Positions 16,497 through 24,287 of a stretch of 64,000 nt of DNA are shown piece after piece. The notes under the pieces are model-generated. The model ran no database searches. It saw nothing but the letters and a program-made list of their open reading frames with translations, and was not told where the DNA came from. Source of the DNA: Lacticaseibacillus absianus (lineage in GTDB: Bacteria; Bacillota; Bacilli; Lactobacillales; Lactobacillaceae); contig NZ_JABEKX010000001.1 in the NCBI RefSeq assembly GCF_013407595.1, positions 124,001 through 188,000 on the forward strand, given 5' to 3'. Each line of letters begins with the position of its first letter. The first letter of the stretch is position 1. Position numbers and translations under genes: made by a program.

Positions 16497-17537
16497 ATGC
16501 AGATGATCGACTATGTGAGGACAACGCCCGACCAGTTACGCGCCAACTTGGCACGAGCGGATGAACTCGTGAGGCCGTTGGTCACCGCCTGGCAGGAAGC
16601 AGAAGTGAACAGCCTAGTATTAGTGGCGTCTGGGTCGTCTTACAATGCTGCGATGATCGCGCTGCCACAGATGCGTGCGCTACTGCGCCAGCCGATGACG
16701 GTGATCACGCCCGAGCAGTATTGTTTGGCTGGGACCGAGTACGCGGTAAAGCCGTTCGTAGTAACAATCTCGCAGAGCGGCGCCTCAACAAATATTGTCC
16801 GTGCACTTGATCAGATGGCGACGCACGGCGAACGACGGATCTTGCTGACGAGTCAGCCGGCCAGTGTCGCCGCGGGACACGCCGAATTAGTCGTGGATTA
16901 CGGACTGGGCACTGAAACCGTTGAATTTGTGACGCTCGGGTTGAGTGCGCTCGTTTGGTTCCTAGTGTTGGCGGCGGCTAAGTGCGCGGATGCACTGACG
17001 AGCGATTTTCGCCGCGACCTGACGCAGGTACCGACGGCCTATGCCCAGGTATTGCGCGTCGCAGATCAGTTCTTTGACACGCATGTACGATCATTGGCCG
17101 AGATGCGCGAGGTCTTCGTCTGCGGTAACGATATGAATCTCGGTGTGGCACGGGAAGGTGCCCTGAAAATGCAGGAAACGATCAAGGTCCCGGCTCGTCA
17201 CTATGAAATCGAGGAGTTTCTTCACGGCCCGGCATATCAGCTGACGGCAGCCAGCACTGTGTGGTTGATCGACGATCCAACGCCGAGTGCGCGCATCGGT
17301 CAGATCCATGCGGCGCTTGCCAAGGTGACGACGCGCGGTTACTTGATCACGACGCGACCCGATGCCGGCGCACAGGCGCTGATCGGCACACCCTTGAGAC
17401 TGCCGCTGATGTCCGGATTAGTGAATGTGGCGGTCAGTCAGCTGCTCTGTGCGCGGTTAATGCACCGACTAGAACGAGAGGCAGTTGACCCGTTGGCACG
17501 CGCTTTTCAATCGGCGGTCCAGATCAAACAGTATTGA
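16497..17537 (+). CDS. double SIS-domain sugar isomerase/deglycase (GlmS/FrlB/AgaS-like)
   Basis: A 346-residue protein with two SIS domains (about 35-170 and 195-340) and no glutaminase domain. Visible motifs are VLVASGSSYNAAM, VTISQSGASTNIV and VCGNDMNLGVAREGALKMQETIKVPARHYEIEEFLHGPAYQL, the sugar-phosphate-binding and catalytic part of GlmS-type isomerases. FrlB-like proteins with this layout deglycate fructosamine 6-phosphates; AgaS-like ones deaminate amino-sugar phosphates. The neighbouring mannose-family PTS and GntR regulator suggest it acts on the 6-phosphorylated product of that PTS. GGGGAG precedes ATG 16497; ATG 16503 is also possible. A terminator follows, so it is a separate transcript from the PTS genes. 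Confidence 0.8.
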   Translation: MQMIDYVRTTPDQLRANLARADELVRPLVTAWQEAEVNSLVLVASGSSYNAAMIALPQMRALLRQPMTVITPEQYCLAGTEYAVKPFVVTISQSGASTNIVRALDQMATHGERRILLTSQPASVAAGHAELVVDYGLGTETVEFVTLGLSALVWFLVLAAAKCADALTSDFRRDLTQVPTAYAQVLRVADQFFDTHVRSLAEMREVFVCGNDMNLGVAREGALKMQETIKVPARHYEIEEFLHGPAYQLTAASTVWLIDDPTPSARIGQIHAALAKVTTRGYLITTRPDAGAQALIGTPLRLPLMSGLVNVAVSQLLCARLMHRLEREAVDPLARAFQSAVQIKQY

Positions 17538-17548
17538 TTTAGGTGCCA

Positions 17549-17588
17549 GTCTTTGTTGCGTAACTTGTCATGCGGCAAAGGCTTTTTT
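17549..17588 (+). terminator. terminator of the SIS gene
   Basis: GTCTTTGTTGCG (17549-17560) can pair with TGCGGCAAAGGC (17571-17582) over 12 bp with several G-T wobbles, followed by six T. Confidence 0.65.
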
Positions 17589-17761
17589 GTTGCAACTTGT
17601 TATGTCGGTGGTATGCTTATCCCTGTAGTGTTAGCGCGCGCTTCTCGTGACGACGTGCGGGTGTGTTAACGGGTGCCTGTCTTATGGTCGGACGGACGTG
17701 GCACGTTTTAAAATGCCGGTTTATGGGCCTTTTTTGACGAAATACCGCGAAAAAAATTTTT

Positions 17762-17775
17762 TGTAAGCGTTGACA
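17762..17775 (+). promoter_or_regulatory. cre site overlapping the -35 box of the gntR-EIIB operon
   Basis: TGTAAGCGTTGACA fits all positions of the cre consensus TGWAANCGNTNWCA, and its last six bases are part of the -35 region. CcpA binding here would block RNA polymerase, giving glucose repression of the PTS operon. The stretch 17589-17761 holds no gene; TTGCAA-16 bp-TATGCT (17590-17617) is a possible second promoter. Confidence 0.8.
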
Positions 17776-17799
17776 ACTTGGCGGCCAGGGTCATATACT
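17770..17799 (+). promoter_or_regulatory. promoter of the gntR-EIIB PTS operon
   Basis: TTGACA (17770-17775) and TATACT (17794-17799) with an 18-bp spacer, 43 bp upstream of the start codon. Confidence 0.75.
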
Positions 17800-17809
17800 C
17801 AGGCTGTGG

Positions 17810-17829
17810 TTGTCATGTGGACATAACAA
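17810..17829. promoter_or_regulatory. candidate operator of the GntR-EIIB protein
   Basis: TTGTCATGT GG ACATAACAA is an inverted repeat with 8 of 9 matching arm positions. It lies between the -10 box and the start codon of the regulator gene, the expected place for an autoregulatory GntR site. Assignment to this GntR protein is inference. Confidence 0.5.
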
Positions 17830-17841
17830 GCAGGTGACGTA

Positions 17842-19062
17842 ATGAACAGACAACCATATTGGCAGTATGAGCAGATCTCTGCGGAATTGATCCGCGAGAT
17901 CGACAATGGTGAGTTGGCGATCGGATCCAAGCTCCCATCGGAGAAGCAGCTATGCGACCTTTTCGATGTGAGTCGGATCACAGTGAGGAAGGCCTTGGCC
18001 GAACTCGAAGAGAAAGGTTATATCGAGAAACGGCAAGGTCAAGGTAGCTTCGTTAAGGACCGTTACAGTGGCGATGAAGAGATCAGTTTTGTGGATGTGC
18101 CGAGCACGCAATTGCGTGAGCGTGGGCATTCGCTCTACATCGAGCTACGTGAGTTCCAGATCCTGGCGGATGGACAGGAGCCCTCTATCCGTCAGATGAT
18201 GCAGCTATCGGACAGCGACTATCTGTACAAGATCAGTCAGCTGTACCTCTCGGATCGCCAACCGCTGATCGATCGCACCACATATATGGCTTTCGACAGC
18301 TTCCCGATGCTCAGCGCAAAAGAGATCCAGGATAATGAGCTGATCCCGTTGTTAGCCCATCGTTATGGGCTGTCACCGGCCTTACTGGAACATTCGATCC
18401 GGACCGGCGTCGATAACATTCCGTCGCGGTTGCGGGGGTTCTTGACCGCGACGCCGCGGACCTCGTACGTCAAGGCCACGACGACCTACGTGAATCAGCA
18501 CAACCATATCGCATACTTCAGCACGGCGATCGCACCGGCGAAATCTAAGGTGTTCTTCGTCAGAGACAAAGGAGAAGAGACTATGTCAGAACCACATATT
18601 TTATTAACGCGGATCGACAACCGACTCGTACATGGCCAGGTAGGCGTGACTTGGACGAAGACATTGGGGGCAAACCTGATCTTGGTGGCCAACAACGAGG
18701 CGTCTCAAGACGTGCTGCAGCAGAAGCTCATGAAGAGTACTGCGGATTCTTCAGGGGCACAGATCCGGTTCTTCACGCTACAAAAAACAATCGATATCAT
18801 CAGCAAGGCGGCAGACCGTCAGAAGATCTTCATCGTGGTCAAGACACCTGCCGACGTTGCCGCACTGGTCGAAGGTGGCGTGCCGATCAAGGAAGTCAAT
18901 GTGGGCAATATGCACTTCGCACCCGGCAAAGAAGAGGTGACGAAGAAGGTCTACGTGGATCAACAGGACAAGGACGACCTGATGCGGTTAGTCCGCGCCG
19001 GTGTCGATGTCTACATCCAAGACGTGCCAGGGGACCGGAAGACACAAGTGAACTTTGATTGA
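17842..19062 (+). CDS. GntR (HTH-UTRA) regulator fused in frame to mannose-family PTS EIIB
   Basis: One 406-residue frame covers two proteins that are normally separate. Residues 1-75 are a GntR winged helix (KLPSEKQLCDLFDVSRITVRKALAELEEKGYIEKRQGQGSFV) and about 85-235 a UTRA ligand-binding domain, a complete HutC-type regulator. From Met 248 (ATG 18583) follows a full-length 159-residue EIIB: ILLTRIDNRLVHGQVG has the phosphorylation His (264 of the fusion), then NVGNMHF and QDVPGD. No stop codon separates the parts. AAAGGAG (18568-18574) precedes ATG 18583 at good spacing, so free EIIB can also be made. IIC, IID and IIA follow downstream. The EIIB part could pass its phosphorylation state to the regulator. 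Confidence 0.88.
   Translation: MNRQPYWQYEQISAELIREIDNGELAIGSKLPSEKQLCDLFDVSRITVRKALAELEEKGYIEKRQGQGSFVKDRYSGDEEISFVDVPSTQLRERGHSLYIELREFQILADGQEPSIRQMMQLSDSDYLYKISQLYLSDRQPLIDRTTYMAFDSFPMLSAKEIQDNELIPLLAHRYGLSPALLEHSIRTGVDNIPSRLRGFLTATPRTSYVKATTTYVNQHNHIAYFSTAIAPAKSKVFFVRDKGEETMSEPHILLTRIDNRLVHGQVGVTWTKTLGANLILVANNEASQDVLQQKLMKSTADSSGAQIRFFTLQKTIDIISKAADRQKIFIVVKTPADVAALVEGGVPIKEVNVGNMHFAPGKEEVTKKVYVDQQDKDDLMRLVRAGVDVYIQDVPGDRKTQVNFD
18568..18585 (+). promoter_or_regulatory. internal ribosome binding site for free EIIB
   Basis: AAAGGAGAAGAG followed by ATG at 18583, inside the GntR-EIIB frame. It would let ribosomes start a separate 159-residue EIIB, so the locus may yield both fusion and free EIIB. 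Confidence 0.65.
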
Positions 19063-19112
19063 GGGTACGGACTCGCAATGCGGGCGCCTCTCGCAATACT
19101 CAGCATGTCAAG

Positions 19113-19142
19113 CCCAACTCTGGGCGCATGTATTGAGTTGGG
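19113..19142 (+). other. intra-operon hairpin between EIIB and EIIC
   Basis: A perfect 8-bp stem CCCAACTC/GAGTTGGG with a 14-nt loop lies in the 139-bp gap between EIIB and EIIC. There is no T-run, so it is more likely an mRNA-processing or stability element than a terminator. Confidence 0.45.
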
Positions 19143-19201
19143 GATATCCGTCCCGCTAGACCCGCGAGTCCTGCTCTGGTTTTCCTGAGGAGGGAAGAAT
19201 A

Positions 19202-20008
19202 ATGGCAATCACCTTAGCACAAGGGCTGATGCTCGGGATTTTCGCGATTTTCGCGGGATTGGATTCCTGGCTTGAAGTCCTGTACATCTTCCGACCGATC
19301 ATTTCGTGTACGGTCGCGGGTCTTATTCTAGGCGATTTGCAAATGGGAATCATCGCCGGTGGGCTGACTGAATTAGCCTTCGCCGGGTTGACACCAGCGG
19401 GTGGCACGCAGCCACCTAACCCTGCGGTGTGCGGGATCATGACGGTTGTGATCGCCCACACGACAGGGGTCGCCCCAGCAACGGCAATGTCGTTATCATT
19501 GCCGTTCGCGATGTTGATGCAATACATTCTGTTAATGTTCTATTCGATTTTCACGGTCTTCATGCCAGGGATGGATAAGGCAGCTGAACAGGCCGACACC
19601 AAGAAGTTCGGTCGCTACGCCTACTTGATGATGGCGATTGTCTGCGCCGCTTTCTTCATCGTGATCTTCCTCTCTGCATACGCGGCTCAGTCGCCGATGC
19701 AGGCGCTGGTCGAAGCGATGCCAGCCTGGCTGATCCATGGGTTCGAACTGGCCGGCGCGGCGCTTCCTGCTGTCGGGTTCGCGATGTTGCTGAAGGTCCT
19801 GCTACGACTCGAATACTTGCCGTTCTTATTGCTCGGCTTCGTGGTCGCCTCGTTCATCAACTATAGCAACGTACTGCCTGCAGCGGTGATCGGCGTCGTC
19901 TTCGCCATGATCGAGTTCTTCCGGGACAAGAAGAACAAGAAGCTGCAAGAGCAGATCGAAGAACTGAAGCAAAACGGTGTAAGCGGAGGTGAAGAAGATG
20001 GCATCTGA
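19202..20008 (+). CDS. PTS EIIC, mannose/sorbose/GalNAc family
   Basis: A 268-residue membrane permease subunit. It starts MAITLAQGLMLGIFAIFAGLDSW and has the family's conserved GDLQMGIIAGGLTELAFAGLTPAGGTQPPNP segment. Several membrane helices follow, and the tail is highly charged (DKKNKKLQEQIEEL). AGGAGGGAAG precedes ATG 19202. It pairs with the downstream EIID, whose start overlaps its end, to form the membrane channel that moves the sugar while EIIB phosphorylates it. The sequence is of the AgaW/sorbose type, so an amino sugar or glycated compound is as likely as mannose. Confidence 0.9.
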   Translation: MAITLAQGLMLGIFAIFAGLDSWLEVLYIFRPIISCTVAGLILGDLQMGIIAGGLTELAFAGLTPAGGTQPPNPAVCGIMTVVIAHTTGVAPATAMSLSLPFAMLMQYILLMFYSIFTVFMPGMDKAAEQADTKKFGRYAYLMMAIVCAAFFIVIFLSAYAAQSPMQALVEAMPAWLIHGFELAGAALPAVGFAMLLKVLLRLEYLPFLLLGFVVASFINYSNVLPAAVIGVVFAMIEFFRDKKNKKLQEQIEELKQNGVSGGEEDGI

Positions 20009-20810
20009 TGAGATCAAAACAACGCCGCAAGCGCCGGCTAAGAAGCTGACCAGTCACGATATCACTGTATTGGGGATCCGCTCCTCACTCCTACAGGCGG
20101 CGTTCTCCTATGAGCGGATGCAAGCCGGTGGCTGGGCGTGGGCACAAGTGCCGGCATGGAAAAAGATCTTCGGTGACGACAAGAAGGGCTTGTCTGAGGC
20201 GATGACCGACAACATGGAATTCATCAACACTTCGCCACCGCTGGTCTCAATCCTGATGGGACTGTTGACCAGCATGGAAGAGAAGCATGTCAACCGGCAG
20301 ACGATCCGCGGGCTGAAGAACGGCTTGTTCGGGCCAATGGCAGGGATCGGGGATGCGATCTACTGGTTCACCCTGATGCCAATCGTCGGCGGGATCGCCG
20401 CATCCTTTGCCGCTAAGGGCAACTTGCTCGGTCCGATCTTGTTCTTCCTCGTGTACCTGGCGGTGTTCCTCTGTCGTATTCCGTTCGCACACCTAGGTTA
20501 TAACCTGGGGACGAAGGCGATCGATGTGATCCAGGAGAACTCCGACATTATCGCGCGGGTAGCAACGATCATGGGCCTGACGGTGATCGGGGCGCTGATC
20601 AGCTCCTATGTCTCACTGTCTTTGAAGGTCAAGATCGGTAGCGTTGCCTTGCAGAAGGATTTCTTGGACAAAGTGTTCCCGAATATTTTGCCACTGGCGT
20701 TCACCTTCTTCCTGTTCTGGTTACTCAAGAAGAAGAAGGTCTCCCCGATCGTGCTGATTGCAGTCGTCTTTGTCCTCTGCATCGTCTGCTCGTTCTTCGG
20801 GATTATGTAA
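19998..20810 (+). CDS. PTS EIID, mannose/sorbose family
   Basis: A 270-residue membrane subunit. Family features are SSLLQAAFSYERMQAGGWAWAQVPAWKKIFGDDKKGLSEAMTDNMEFINTSPPLVSILMGL, KNGLFGPMAGIGDAIYWFTLMPI and three or four C-terminal helices ending in LLKKKKVSPIVLIAVVFVLC. ATG 19998 follows GGAGG at 8 nt; the GTG at 19989 overlaps that site. The start lies 11 bp inside the EIIC gene, so translation is coupled. It forms the membrane complex with EIIC. Confidence 0.92.
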   Translation: MASDEIKTTPQAPAKKLTSHDITVLGIRSSLLQAAFSYERMQAGGWAWAQVPAWKKIFGDDKKGLSEAMTDNMEFINTSPPLVSILMGLLTSMEEKHVNRQTIRGLKNGLFGPMAGIGDAIYWFTLMPIVGGIAASFAAKGNLLGPILFFLVYLAVFLCRIPFAHLGYNLGTKAIDVIQENSDIIARVATIMGLTVIGALISSYVSLSLKVKIGSVALQKDFLDKVFPNILPLAFTFFLFWLLKKKKVSPIVLIAVVFVLCIVCSFFGIM

Positions 20811-20825
20811 GGAGGTTCGACAGAT

Positions 20826-21251
20826 TTGGCCCAATATTCAACTATTGTGACGGGACACGGCCACTTCGCCACGGGGATGCAGAGTGCGCTGGAGCTACTT
20901 GCAGGTCCACAAGCGACGATCCAGTTCATCGACTTTGAAGACGGTATGAGCGAAGACACGCTGGGGGTGCGGTTGGCCGCTGCGGTGGCCGACGCACCGA
21001 CGCTGATCTTTACGGATCTAGTCGGTGGGACGCCCTACAAGGAAGCAGCCAAGCTGGCGTTTGCCCACCGCAACGTGGCCGTTGTTGCGGGTTGCAACCT
21101 CGCGTCGCTACTCGAGACGGTTTTCGGGAATTATGATTCCCTCCCGGACTACGCGAACGCACTTGTGGCGATCACGCAGCGTTCGGCGCAAGTGCTCGAT
21201 CTGTCGCTTGATGAGGATACTGGCACAGACGATCTGGAAGATGGAATCTGA
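20826..21251 (+). CDS. PTS EIIA, mannose family
   Basis: A 141-residue cytoplasmic phosphocarrier. The N-terminus YSTIVTGHGHFATGM holds the phosphorylation His (residue 11, in TGHG), and TLIFTDLVGGTPYKEAAKLAF is a second family motif. It starts with TTG at 20826, 10 nt after AAGGAGG; no ATG is available nearby. It takes phosphate from HPr and passes it to EIIB, either the free form or the GntR-fused form encoded at the start of the operon. It is 15 bp after EIID. The acidic tail (DEDTGTDDLEDGI) is not part of the core fold. Confidence 0.9.
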   Translation: MAQYSTIVTGHGHFATGMQSALELLAGPQATIQFIDFEDGMSEDTLGVRLAAAVADAPTLIFTDLVGGTPYKEAAKLAFAHRNVAVVAGCNLASLLETVFGNYDSLPDYANALVAITQRSAQVLDLSLDEDTGTDDLEDGI

Positions 21252-21263
21252 CTGTGTAGCACT

Positions 21264-21296
21264 ACCGGGCCTGTCGCACACTGCGGCAGGCCCGGT
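21264..21296 (+). other. intra-operon hairpin between EIIA and the HAD gene
   Basis: A perfect 10-bp GC-rich stem ACCGGGCCTG/CAGGCCCGGT (21264-21273 and 21287-21296) with a 13-nt loop. It has no T-run and ends 20 bp before ATG 21316. It may reduce read-through or stabilise mRNA ends. Confidence 0.45.
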
Positions 21297-21315
21297 GTCG
21301 TCCAAGGAGGACATA

Positions 21316-22161
21316 ATGGAATTGATCGGGATCGACCTTGATGGGACGTTACTCAATTCGCAGCAGCAGATCAGTGCGGGTAATGCCGGCGCCTTGATCA
21401 GGGCACAGGCACGCTGGTTGCCCTTCATCTGCACGGGACGCGATCCAGAAGATGTGGTGCGGTTGCTCGCGCAGGTGGGTCTAACGTTGCCGATCGTCGG
21501 GCTGAATGGCGGGATCGGCGTCAGCGGGGGCCGGATCTTATTCAGTCGACCGTTCCAGCCAGTTGCGGCGTTAGCGATCATGGCGACACTGGCAGATTAT
21601 CCGGTGAAAGTGTACACGGCCACAGATCGCTTCGAGACGGTGGATTACCAGGCGCAACTGCGTACCTTATTCGATGCGATCGGGGAATCGCAATTCGGTG
21701 CGGGTCTACGCTACGAGTTGGCTTACGAGGCAGGGATCACGTCTCGCCCGCTGGCGGCAGACGCCTGCGTTCAGGCAGGTCAGGGAATTCTGAAGTTCTA
21801 TTGCTTCATGCCCAACCGCGCTAAGCGTGCGGCGCTCGCGGCGGCACTTCGGCAGATCCCCCAAGTGACCGTGACGAGTTCGGGACCTGACAACCTTGAA
21901 ATCTTACCTGCTGGCACGGACAAGGGGCGGGCATTTGCTGCTTTGCGCCAGCACTTTCACCTTGGCCTTGATCGAAACATCGCGATCGGGGACAGCCCTA
22001 ACGATCAGGCGATGCTGAACGCGGCTGATCTTGTGATCATCATGGCCAATGCCTCGGCGGCGCTTCGCGCCCAGGCCGACTATGTGACGCTGCGCAACGA
22101 TGAGGACGGCGTCGCGCACACCTTGAGATGGCTGGCGCAGGTCGAAGAGACGCTCGTGTGA
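21316..22161 (+). CDS. Cof-type HAD superfamily phosphatase
   Basis: A 281-residue HAD hydrolase of the Cof/YidA type (C2 cap). The nucleophile motif DLDGTLLNS is at the N-terminus, FICTGRDPEDV is motif II, GTDKGRAF carries the motif III Lys, and AIGDSPNDQAMLNAA is motif IV. AAGGAGG precedes ATG 21316. These enzymes dephosphorylate sugar phosphates. As last gene of the PTS operon it may dephosphorylate the imported sugar phosphate or relieve sugar-phosphate stress; the specific substrate cannot be read from sequence. Confidence 0.9.
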   Translation: MELIGIDLDGTLLNSQQQISAGNAGALIRAQARWLPFICTGRDPEDVVRLLAQVGLTLPIVGLNGGIGVSGGRILFSRPFQPVAALAIMATLADYPVKVYTATDRFETVDYQAQLRTLFDAIGESQFGAGLRYELAYEAGITSRPLAADACVQAGQGILKFYCFMPNRAKRAALAAALRQIPQVTVTSSGPDNLEILPAGTDKGRAFAALRQHFHLGLDRNIAIGDSPNDQAMLNAADLVIIMANASAALRAQADYVTLRNDEDGVAHTLRWLAQVEETLV

Positions 22162-22175
22162 GGACGATGGACAGT

Positions 22176-22211
22176 AAAACCCCACTCAGATCGTAATCTG
22201 AGTGGGGTTTT
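22176..22211. terminator. bidirectional terminator between convergent HAD and flavoprotein genes
   Basis: A perfect 16-bp stem AAAACCCCACTCAGAT (22176-22191) / ATCTGAGTGGGGTTTT (22196-22211) with loop CGTA. It ends in four T in both directions and lies between the two convergent genes. Confidence 0.92.
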
Positions 22212-22235
22212 GTTCCGGGCGGTCACTTGTGTGGT

Positions 22236-24032
22236 TCAGTCCTTGGTGACCTGCGCCCCGGCGATGCGGCCGAAGACGATAATATCGCAGATCGCGTTGC
22301 CGCCGAGACGGTTAGTTCCGTGGATCCCGCCGGTGACTTCCCCAGCCGCGTAAAGGCCGGGGATGACTTGCCCTTTAGTGTCGATCGCTTGGGCGTTCGT
22401 GTTGATCTTGATGCCGCCCATGGTGTGGTGCGTGGATGGGGCGACTTTTTCGATGTAGTATGGGCCCTTGGCGATACTGGTGAACGCCGCAGACTTCTGG
22501 AAGTCGGGGTCCTTCTTAGCCTTGACGTAGCCGTTGAAGGTCTTGACCGTGTTGCTCAGCGTGGTCGCGTCGATGTCGAAGGCGTCCGCGAGGCTCTTGA
22601 CGTTGTTGGTTTCGGCCAGTAAATTACTGGACTTCAAGCCGTTGAATTCCTTCTTGTAGGTCGTCGTGGTCTTGCTGAGCTTCTCGATCTCTTGACCCCA
22701 GACCAGGTAAGCGTAGTGGCCTTTTTGCGCCATGATCGCGTTACTAATGTCATCGCGGCGGCCAGATTCGTTAACGAAGCGCTTGCCGGCCTGATTGACC
22801 AGGATCGCGCCGGAAAAACGGGCATCGGCAACGTAGGAGATGATGCCGGTTTCCGGATTCGAGGTCGGGTAGGTCTGGATCTGCTTCATGTCGACTAACT
22901 GTGCGCCGATCTTCTGCGCCATAACGATCCCGTCGCCAGTTGCACCGGCGACGGCGGTGGTCTTGTAGGTCGCATCATACTTCGGGTTGTACTTCACCCG
23001 CATCGCGACGTTAGCGGCGAAGCCACCAGCGGCGTCGACGACACCCTTGGTTGCGTGGAAGGTCACGGGCTTACCCGTGTTGGTCGCGGTCACACCGGTC
23101 ACTTTGCCGCTTGCGGTGGTCAGCGCCGTCGCTTTGGTGCTGGTATAGATCTTAACCCCAAGCTTTTTGGCCTTCTTTTGGAGTTTGTTGACGATCTCAG
23201 CTCCGGTCCCGCCGACGGGCACGACCGCACGTGGCACGCTGACGCCACCGAATTGAAGCAGTTCATCTTTGTGGAAACGGACGTTGACATCGGTTTTCAG
23301 CCATTCGTACGCGCTGTTGGCATTGTTGGCCAAGGTGGTAACGAGGGCTGGATCAGCGATGTTATCGCCGCCCTTCAGTGTGTCGGAGATGAACAGAGCC
23401 TTAGAGTCCTTGATGCCCTTACGTTTTTGAATATCAGAGCCAGGCACATTGAATTCACCCCCGGAGACAGCGGTATTGCCTCCAACATTCGGCTGCTTCT
23501 CCAACAAGCCGACGGTCGCGCCGTTCTCCGCAGCGGTCACGGCGGCCGCCAGACCGCCGCCACCACCACCGATCACGACAACGTCATAGGTGTAGTCGGT
23601 CTTGGCGAGGCCCTTGCTCAAAGCGATTTTCTTCTTGCTCATGAACAGACTGAGCGGGGCGCCAGACTTCTTCACCGCATTCTTGACGGCGGTCAGGTAG
23701 CCCTCAGAGGACTTCGATGCACCGGACACAGCGTCGACGTTCACTGAGTTGTGCGCCACGATCGCCTCGCGCAGTTGCTCGGAGGCCTCGATCCCCAGTC
23801 CGGCTGTTTCATGCGTCTCCACGGTTTTGACATCCGTGATCTTCTTGCCTTTGATGGTGACGGCGACCTTCAGTGTGCCGCCTTCACCCTTACTGGTCCC
23901 GACGTAAGTCCCGTCCTTCACCGTTGTCGCCTGCTTGGAGCTGGCTTGTTGGTTACCACAACCGACCATCAAGAAGAGACCGAAGACGAGCGCAACTGCG
24001 AACAGTGCGCGCTTTAAACTTTGTTTCATCAT
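22236..24032 (-). CDS. extracellular flavoprotein reductase (FMN_bind + FAD_binding_2), lipoprotein
   Basis: A 598-residue surface lipoprotein. The signal peptide ends in the lipobox LMVGC (Cys 25). An FMN_bind domain (about 40-120) has DAVSGASKSSEGY, the site where ApbE-type enzymes attach FMN covalently. A fumarate-reductase-like FAD domain follows (about 145-598): DVVVIGGGGGGLAAAVTAAENGA, GGNTAVSGGEF and the C-terminal TMGGIKIN...GLYAAGEVTGGIHGTNRLGGNA. This domain order is that of extracellular fumarate/urocanate-type reductases fed by flavin-based electron transfer. ATG 24032 (or 24029) follows GGAGG. The electron acceptor cannot be told. No ApbE or electron-transfer partner is in the window. 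Confidence 0.88.
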   Translation of the reverse strand: MMKQSLKRALFAVALVFGLFLMVGCGNQQASSKQATTVKDGTYVGTSKGEGGTLKVAVTIKGKKITDVKTVETHETAGLGIEASEQLREAIVAHNSVNVDAVSGASKSSEGYLTAVKNAVKKSGAPLSLFMSKKKIALSKGLAKTDYTYDVVVIGGGGGGLAAAVTAAENGATVGLLEKQPNVGGNTAVSGGEFNVPGSDIQKRKGIKDSKALFISDTLKGGDNIADPALVTTLANNANSAYEWLKTDVNVRFHKDELLQFGGVSVPRAVVPVGGTGAEIVNKLQKKAKKLGVKIYTSTKATALTTASGKVTGVTATNTGKPVTFHATKGVVDAAGGFAANVAMRVKYNPKYDATYKTTAVAGATGDGIVMAQKIGAQLVDMKQIQTYPTSNPETGIISYVADARFSGAILVNQAGKRFVNESGRRDDISNAIMAQKGHYAYLVWGQEIEKLSKTTTTYKKEFNGLKSSNLLAETNNVKSLADAFDIDATTLSNTVKTFNGYVKAKKDPDFQKSAAFTSIAKGPYYIEKVAPSTHHTMGGIKINTNAQAIDTKGQVIPGLYAAGEVTGGIHGTNRLGGNAICDIIVFGRIAGAQVTKD

Positions 24033-24287
24033 AATATTCCTCCAATCCTTATATAGCTTAACTGAATTTTTTGTGAAAATATACACAGAAACGTTCGCCA
24101 TTAGGATAAGATTTTAGTGAGCGCAGGCCGATCAAATTTTTCCGTTACAATGGTGTTTCCCCCTAACGAGGCGTGAAATCGATGAGTGAAAAGGTCTGGT
24201 CTGTGAGAAATTGCTCGTGATCAAGCGATGCGAATGCAAGATCGTTCACGTGATGGCGCGCAGTGCACGGGTGTGATGAATGACAAA

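Follow-up and report, generated by a model that had tools for sequence, protein, structure and literature searches.

An in-frame fusion of a GntR/UTRA regulator with the EIIB subunit of a predicted galactosamine PTS in Lacticaseibacillus absianus, and its possible role as an autorepressor that senses through EIIB

A single reading frame of L. absianus was found to encode a GntR-family regulator followed, with no stop codon between them, by a complete PTS EIIB. Sequence comparison established this fusion and its conservation, selection on an internal start for EIIB, the operon that the gene heads and a conserved inverted repeat upstream of it. Read jointly, the observations suggest a two-product gene which would yield a fused autorepressor with EIIB as its sensor and, in addition, free EIIB for transport; we give this reading a probability of roughly 55%. 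The window referred to below is the whole stretch of DNA that was analysed (64,000 nucleotides; positions 124,001 to 188,000 of contig NZ_JABEKX010000001.1), and its features are collected in Table 1.

Table 1 Features of the gntR::EIIB locus, in window coordinates.
Feature	Position	Strand	Remarks
cre-like CcpA site TGTAAGCGTTGACA	17762..17775	+	matches TGWAANCGNTNWCA; overlaps the -35 box
Sigma-70 type promoter, TTGACA-18-TATACT	17770..17799	+	11/12 consensus matches
Putative operator, inverted repeat TTGTCATGTGGACATAACAA	17810..17829	+	TTGTn12ACAA; just downstream of -10
gntR::EIIB fusion frame	17842-19062	+	no stop; 406 codons, 406 aa
GntR HTH (codons 8-71) and UTRA fold (about 98-232)	17842..18546	+	Pfam, AlphaFold2 model, Foldseek
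Linker, codons 236-247, holding the internal Shine-Dalgarno site	18547..18582	+	low model confidence; residues vary
Internal Shine-Dalgarno site AAAGGAGAAG	18568-18577	+	duplex energy -9.4 kcal/mol
EIIB domain, codons 248-406	18583..19062	+	NCBIfam galactosamine IIB; Foldseek 3eye
Internal EIIB ATG	18583-18585	+	putative start of free EIIB
EIIB His264 codon	18631-18633	+	invariant in alignment
Hairpin-forming dispersed repeat between EIIB and EIIC	19063..19190	+	folding z -3.46
EIIC	19202..20008	+	NCBIfam PTS galactosamine IIC, above cut-off
EIID	19989..20810	+	NCBIfam PTS galactosamine IID, above cut-off
EIIA	20826..21251	+	matches NCBIfam AgaF and EIIA-man, each below its cut-off; position shared by homologous operons

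Domain architecture of the fusion protein

An earlier note on this DNA had described a complete HTH-UTRA regulator and a complete mannose-family EIIB in one frame, and the domain searches agree with it. Pfam matched the 406-aa protein to GntR (PF00392, residues 8-71, 1.2e-20), to UTRA (PF07702, residues 113-227, 1.5e-5; 25.3 bits against a cut-off of 23.8) and to PTSIIB_sorb (PF03830, residues 253-399, 1.4e-48), and none of its nine Pfam matches at a threshold of 0.001 was a PRD domain. The C-terminal part was assigned to the NCBIfam family 'PTS galactosamine transporter subunit IIB' with 250 bits against a cut-off of 180. In Foldseek comparisons of the AlphaFold2 model, the HTH/UTRA part resembled YvoA/NagR and DasR, the UTRA fold also resembled PhnF, and the EIIB part resembled E. 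coli IIB 3eye (target TM 0.97, 60% identity). The regulator half, having both an HTH and a UTRA domain, is a member of the HutC (UTRA) subfamily of the GntR family. By its IIB fold and its predicted phosphorylatable His, the other half belongs to the mannose/sorbose family of EIIB proteins. The phosphorylation His, which the earlier note had reported as kept, is H264 and was the same residue in 11/11 alignment rows; the EIIB part thus seems to retain the signs of a working phosphocarrier.

EIIB was far better conserved than the GntR part among the homologs (92% versus 56% in G376, for example). When one ortholog pair was compared, with the 92% identical gene of G001, dN/dS was 0.031 for GntR and 0.015 for EIIB at dS >1.4, indicating purifying selection on both halves.

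Distribution of the fusion

When the fusion was sought in relatives, the same open junction was found in nine further genomes and on plasmids of Lacticaseibacillus paracasei, so that, apart from these plasmids, ten genomes representing five genera and two families carry the stop-free fusion. A search with the full-length protein gave stop-free matches to both parts in G000 (the genome of the window), G001 (92%), G032, G376, G193, G366, G192, G026 (66%) and G350 (45%). These nine came from a search of 397 sampled genomes of the family, 45 of which matched at E 1e-45, mostly by EIIB alone. G487, from the other family, carried the fusion at 54% among 395 sampled genomes of the order. At E 1e-80, matches were found in 3/30 genomes of the window's own genus (all three fused), in 7/36 of the genus of G032 (four fused, three with stops) and in 2/12 of the genus of G193 (one fused, one with a stop; G257, which belongs to this genus, fell below the threshold), and at E 1e-75 in 1/29 genomes of the family of G487; the genus, family and order search sets overlap. 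Searches at E 1e-75, a threshold that weaker fusions would escape, covered 398 genomes sampled from the class and 398 sampled from the phylum and detected no further fusion. A second EIIB of the window's genome (G000:C1:107277), considered as another fusion, is unjoined, and the GntR gene near it lies on the opposite strand.

Three L. paracasei plasmid records carried the fusion at 62%, and in two plasmid regions (L070 7001-8227 and L071 1423-2649) it forms one 1227-base CDS. Both of these CDSs are annotated as agaB with the sole product name 'PTS galactosamine transporter subunit IIB', which leaves the regulator half invisible by name. GntR and EIIB are separate genes on a further L. paracasei plasmid.

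Operon and neighbouring genes

The order regulator plus EIIB, then EIIC, EIID and EIIA was found in ten regions as well as in G001 and G487, with no other constant neighbour, and unfused relatives share the gntR-EIIB order. Since IIB, IIC and IID all score above the curated cut-offs, the operon is assigned to the galactosamine PTS, its substrate being a prediction from sequence. No other EIIB gene was found between the fusion and EIIA, either in L. absianus or in the other fused loci that were read; in G192, another PTS gene set, which includes an EIIB of its own (30% identity), follows directly downstream. The repeat that follows EIIB has 10 further matches in the same genome, eight of them of about 110 bases, at 71-75% identity. 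It is missing from the locus of the 92% ortholog, and L084 has a 38-base gap at this place; such an element might alter how strongly the two halves of the operon are expressed relative to each other.

Three observations concern the neighbourhood. Beside the separate GntR and EIIB genes of G304 (L057 6616-7423), two overlapping ORFs take the place of a single EIIC frame, which may reflect decay or an assembly error. The gene after EIIA in G001 may encode a sugar-phosphate isomerase. The gene at 22236-24101 on the minus strand, beside the operon, is one that we take to encode a flavoprotein, and relatives at 36-37% also lie near the operon in L064 and L058.

Control region

The promoter has similar counterparts at the same place in homologs, and the cre-like site matches what we take to be the cre consensus (TGWAANCGNTNWCA), a match shared by 15/17 homologous upstream regions. 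The pattern TTGTn12ACAA of the inverted repeat was present in 17/17 upstream regions of the regulators compared, both fused and separate. When the 2.84 Mb genome was searched with a stricter pattern, TTGTNATRNNNNYATNACAA, which weaker sites would escape, a single place matched; with up to two mismatches, the operator pattern was found at one place in the window. Because the repeat is so constant upstream of these regulators and its stricter form stands at one genomic place, the regulator looks like a dedicated autorepressor, probably of gntR::EIIB-EIIC-EIID-EIIA. Two operator-like half sites, CTTGTYATG, are located at 17564-17572 and 17596-17604, between the SIS gene and the fusion, and similar half sites were seen by eye upstream of the G001 ortholog. 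In 17500-22300, no Rfam family reached its gathering score.

Internal start for free EIIB

The start inside the frame, from which the earlier note had proposed that free EIIB is made, proved to be conserved. A Shine-Dalgarno site precedes the EIIB ATG in 11/11 fusions. Its duplex energy ranges from -9.3 to -12.3 kcal/mol, whereas 1148 internal Met codons had a median of -2.3; 0.3-1.9% of these codons reach the individual energies observed in the fusions. The energies were calculated with a sequence that we assume to be the anti-Shine-Dalgarno tail. The ATG itself is present in the ten fused genes of the codon comparison and in G350, and the Shine-Dalgarno site stays while the linker residues differ (KGEET, LRGGNN, KEEHT, EGEND).

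Codon use was compared among ten fused genes, whose row pairs are not independent. Where a pair had the same residue, the share of identical codons reached 0.77 over the 15 columns that surround the ATG, compared with 0.41 for the GntR part and 0.39 for the remaining EIIB. Of 404 nine-column windows, the ten with the highest conservation each began 1-11 columns before the ATG. The highest synonymous-codon conservation of the gene therefore lies at the internal start. Against the 92% ortholog, the synonymous difference was 0.65-0.86 elsewhere and dropped to 0.29 over the 12 codons of the linker, which is a short stretch. When single linkers were recoded synonymously, the Shine-Dalgarno site was significant (<0.05) in 3/11, a weak test because linkers rich in Gly, Glu and Lys yield such DNA by themselves. 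The codon pattern at the linker and ATG is that expected from selection on an in-frame translation start. As the site and ATG are kept in the fusions and synonymous conservation peaks there, the gene most probably yields two products, the repressor-EIIB and free EIIB. A search for an internal EIIB promoter gave 3 promoter-like sites versus 2.0 expected in 17500-22300; the one inside the GntR part, at 18171-18200, had 9/12 matches.

Ligand-binding residues of the UTRA part

GntR/UTRA regulators are normally taken as small-molecule sensors. NagR, as far as the excerpt of its description goes, holds the phosphate of GlcN-6-P by Arg133, Arg135 and the N-termini of two helices, and the sugar partly by Glu145 (PMC4333415). 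When the homologs were aligned by MAFFT to partial sequences of NagR and DasR, the Arg133 and Arg135 positions were replaced in 17/17 of them, by Q/H/K/Y/L and by Y/F/V, respectively. At the Glu145 position, 11/11 fusions had R, K or Q and G257 had K; 4/5 separate regulators had E or D there. Judged by its aligned residues, the fusion is not a NagR-type hexosamine-phosphate sensor, since it has neither arginine, and binding of hexosamine phosphates by its UTRA part in the manner of NagR is unlikely. It could bind another ligand, because NagR also uses helix N-termini, so that a UTRA domain with neither arginine might still hold one. The arginine loss is not tied to the fusion, as separate sister regulators lack them too. 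Short of proof, the replacement favours sensing through EIIB; together with an operator that, in the strict pattern, stands before this operon only, it makes control of DNA binding by EIIB phosphorylation plausible.

History of the fusion

Trees were built from 17 GntR/EIIB pairs. In the EIIB tree, a branch with 100/100 support separated ten fused rows and G257 from five separate pairs and the G350 fusion. In the GntR tree, a nine-member fused core had 100/100 support and the split of the two large groups was weak (76/55); here G487 and G257 fell outside the core, in disagreement with the EIIB tree and with weak support. The simplest reading of the sequences is one old fusion and, in G350, what looks like a second one among the separate pairs; an independent origin in G487 is possible. 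G350 (L037/L059) also has Arg at the NagR Glu145 position.

Among the homologs examined, the side of the EIIB tree that includes the L. absianus gene had no stop before the EIIB start; such stops were found only on the other side. The loss of a stop between neighbouring genes, which the earlier note had offered as the simple alternative, accordingly stands as the presumed origin of the fusion, and it was neither recent nor strain-specific. In G257 (L056 5900-6100), the GntR frame passes the EIIB ATG with no stop and is then shifted by one base, leaving EIIB out of frame, which may be real slippage, decay or an assembly error. A neutral simulation of the linker gave no significant result: with three rates and six start linkers, the probability of no stop averaged 0.04-0.20 for the clade (0.02-0.46 with single linkers) and 0.19-0.43 for the nine-member core (0.05-0.82 with single linkers). 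Retention of the open frame by chance is thus compatible with the data.

Proposed mechanism and alternative explanations

Based on these results, the following mechanism is proposed. From the first start, a 406-residue autorepressor would be made, comprising the GntR HTH, the UTRA fold, a flexible linker of about 12 residues and the full EIIB; from the internal start, a free EIIB of 159 residues would be made for transport. Sitting on the inverted repeat, the repressor would repress its own operon, adding to CcpA control at the cre site. Each repressor molecule would bear the transporter's own phosphocarrier, most likely as the sensor. During substrate flow, EIIB on its tether would pass its phosphate to the sugar and dock on EIIC/EIID, docking would draw the repressor off the DNA, and free EIIB would compete for docking and so limit the response. 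In a comparable way, Mlc is drawn off in trans by the EIIB of PtsG when this is unphosphorylated, and the membrane docking step is modelled on such cases. We infer the repression, the substrate, EIIB phosphorylation, the docking and the effect of these on DNA binding from the comparisons above. That flux is sensed by phosphorylation or docking of EIIB instead of by a UTRA effector, with two products from a selected internal start and the sister pairs acting in trans, we rate as an even chance. The neutral linker simulation, the recoding result, the helix N-termini used by NagR, the arginine loss in separate sister regulators, the second EIIB of G192 and the placement of G487 and G257 in the GntR tree count against the proposed mechanism.

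In the chief alternative, UTRA still senses a sugar or an unusual sugar phosphate, and EIIB is a passenger that became fused by stop loss between adjacent genes and is tolerated because the internal start still supplies free EIIB. The shared gene order of unfused relatives, the complete UTRA fold and the result of the no-stop retention test, not significant by itself, are in keeping with such a passenger; retention of the fusion by ten intact members on one side of a deep branch, the apparent second fusion in G350 and the loss of the NagR phosphate-binding arginines in 17/17 speak against it, and we consider it unlikely, if still a serious competitor of EIIB sensing.

A switch in cis that needs no docking is a more doubtful proposal: EIIA would phosphorylate His264, the contacts of EIIB with UTRA/HTH would shift, and affinity for DNA would change with them. 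The intact His264 and IIB fold and the presence of an EIIA gene within the same operon would suit it. The AlphaFold2 model (a monomer from a 32-row alignment; mean pLDDT 78.9) argues against it: the HTH, UTRA and EIIB parts were well formed, but no fixed interface between domains was predicted, pTM was 0.42 and the linker was of low confidence, with pLDDT <50 for 236-248 (further low-confidence segments were 1-3, 76-87 and 192-206). A sequencing error, a strain-specific stop loss or a pseudogene decaying after stop loss is scarcely credible even though broken copies such as that of G257 exist, being excluded by fused orthologs in nine other genomes and on plasmids recorded as complete and by dN/dS values far below 1 in both halves.

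Comparison with known systems

For PRD regulators, PTS control through EIIB-like domains is established, and the EIIB-like domain is a regulatory copy alongside the PRDs. CelR, MtlR and LicR share with the fusion a PTS-type EIIB domain in a regulator; in CelR this domain carries a phosphorylatable cysteine, according to the excerpt of its description (PMC3585215). The fusion differs from them in bearing the transporter's own mannose-family histidine EIIB, most probably also made free, on a GntR protein. What appears to be new is a link of this kind on a GntR-UTRA protein; among the mostly open-access papers that literature searches listed, no title or abstract opening reported a GntR-EIIB fusion. 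NagR/YvoA and DasR are GntR/HutC-UTRA repressors like the fusion in their HTH and UTRA folds and in an operator of the even-palindrome type; unlike it, their solved chains (lengths 243-257) have no EIIB domain, and the Arg133/Arg135 phosphate ligands given in the NagR excerpt (PMC4333415) are replaced in the fusion.

EIIB is reportedly a direct partner of the regulator in MtlR/MtlA, in work ascribed to Bouraoui in 2013. Membrane sequestration in Mlc/PtsG and MtlR/MtlA thus offers an analogy for the EIIB contact proposed here; those systems consist of two proteins acting in trans, and MtlR is activated, whereas the fusion is one polypeptide. Relative to the galactosamine PTS AgaBCD, of which EIIB, EIIC and EIID here pass the NCBIfam cut-offs, EIIB differs by its N-terminal regulator. 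The GntR regulators of GalN/GalNAc genes in Lactobacillales, AgaR1 and AgaR2, are likewise GntR/HutC regulators of galactosamine-type PTS operons; in the excerpt of their description, the words 'fusion' and 'fused' occur 0 times, and the quoted sites (20- and 18-bp motifs), compared by eye only, are unlike TTGTn12ACAA (PMC4694137).

Implications

The fusion is a gene type that automatic annotation hides, as in the two L. paracasei plasmid copies, and the system sits in food-associated bacteria, where it is open to test. Through such a fusion, a transporter may exert direct control over the expression of its own genes. If sensing through EIIB is correct, a long-conserved covalent tie to an apparently working PTS phosphocarrier would represent a direct flux-sensing route for the large GntR/UTRA family, and, by Rosetta-stone reasoning, the separate GntR and EIIB proteins of the sister group would be expected to act by contact in trans.
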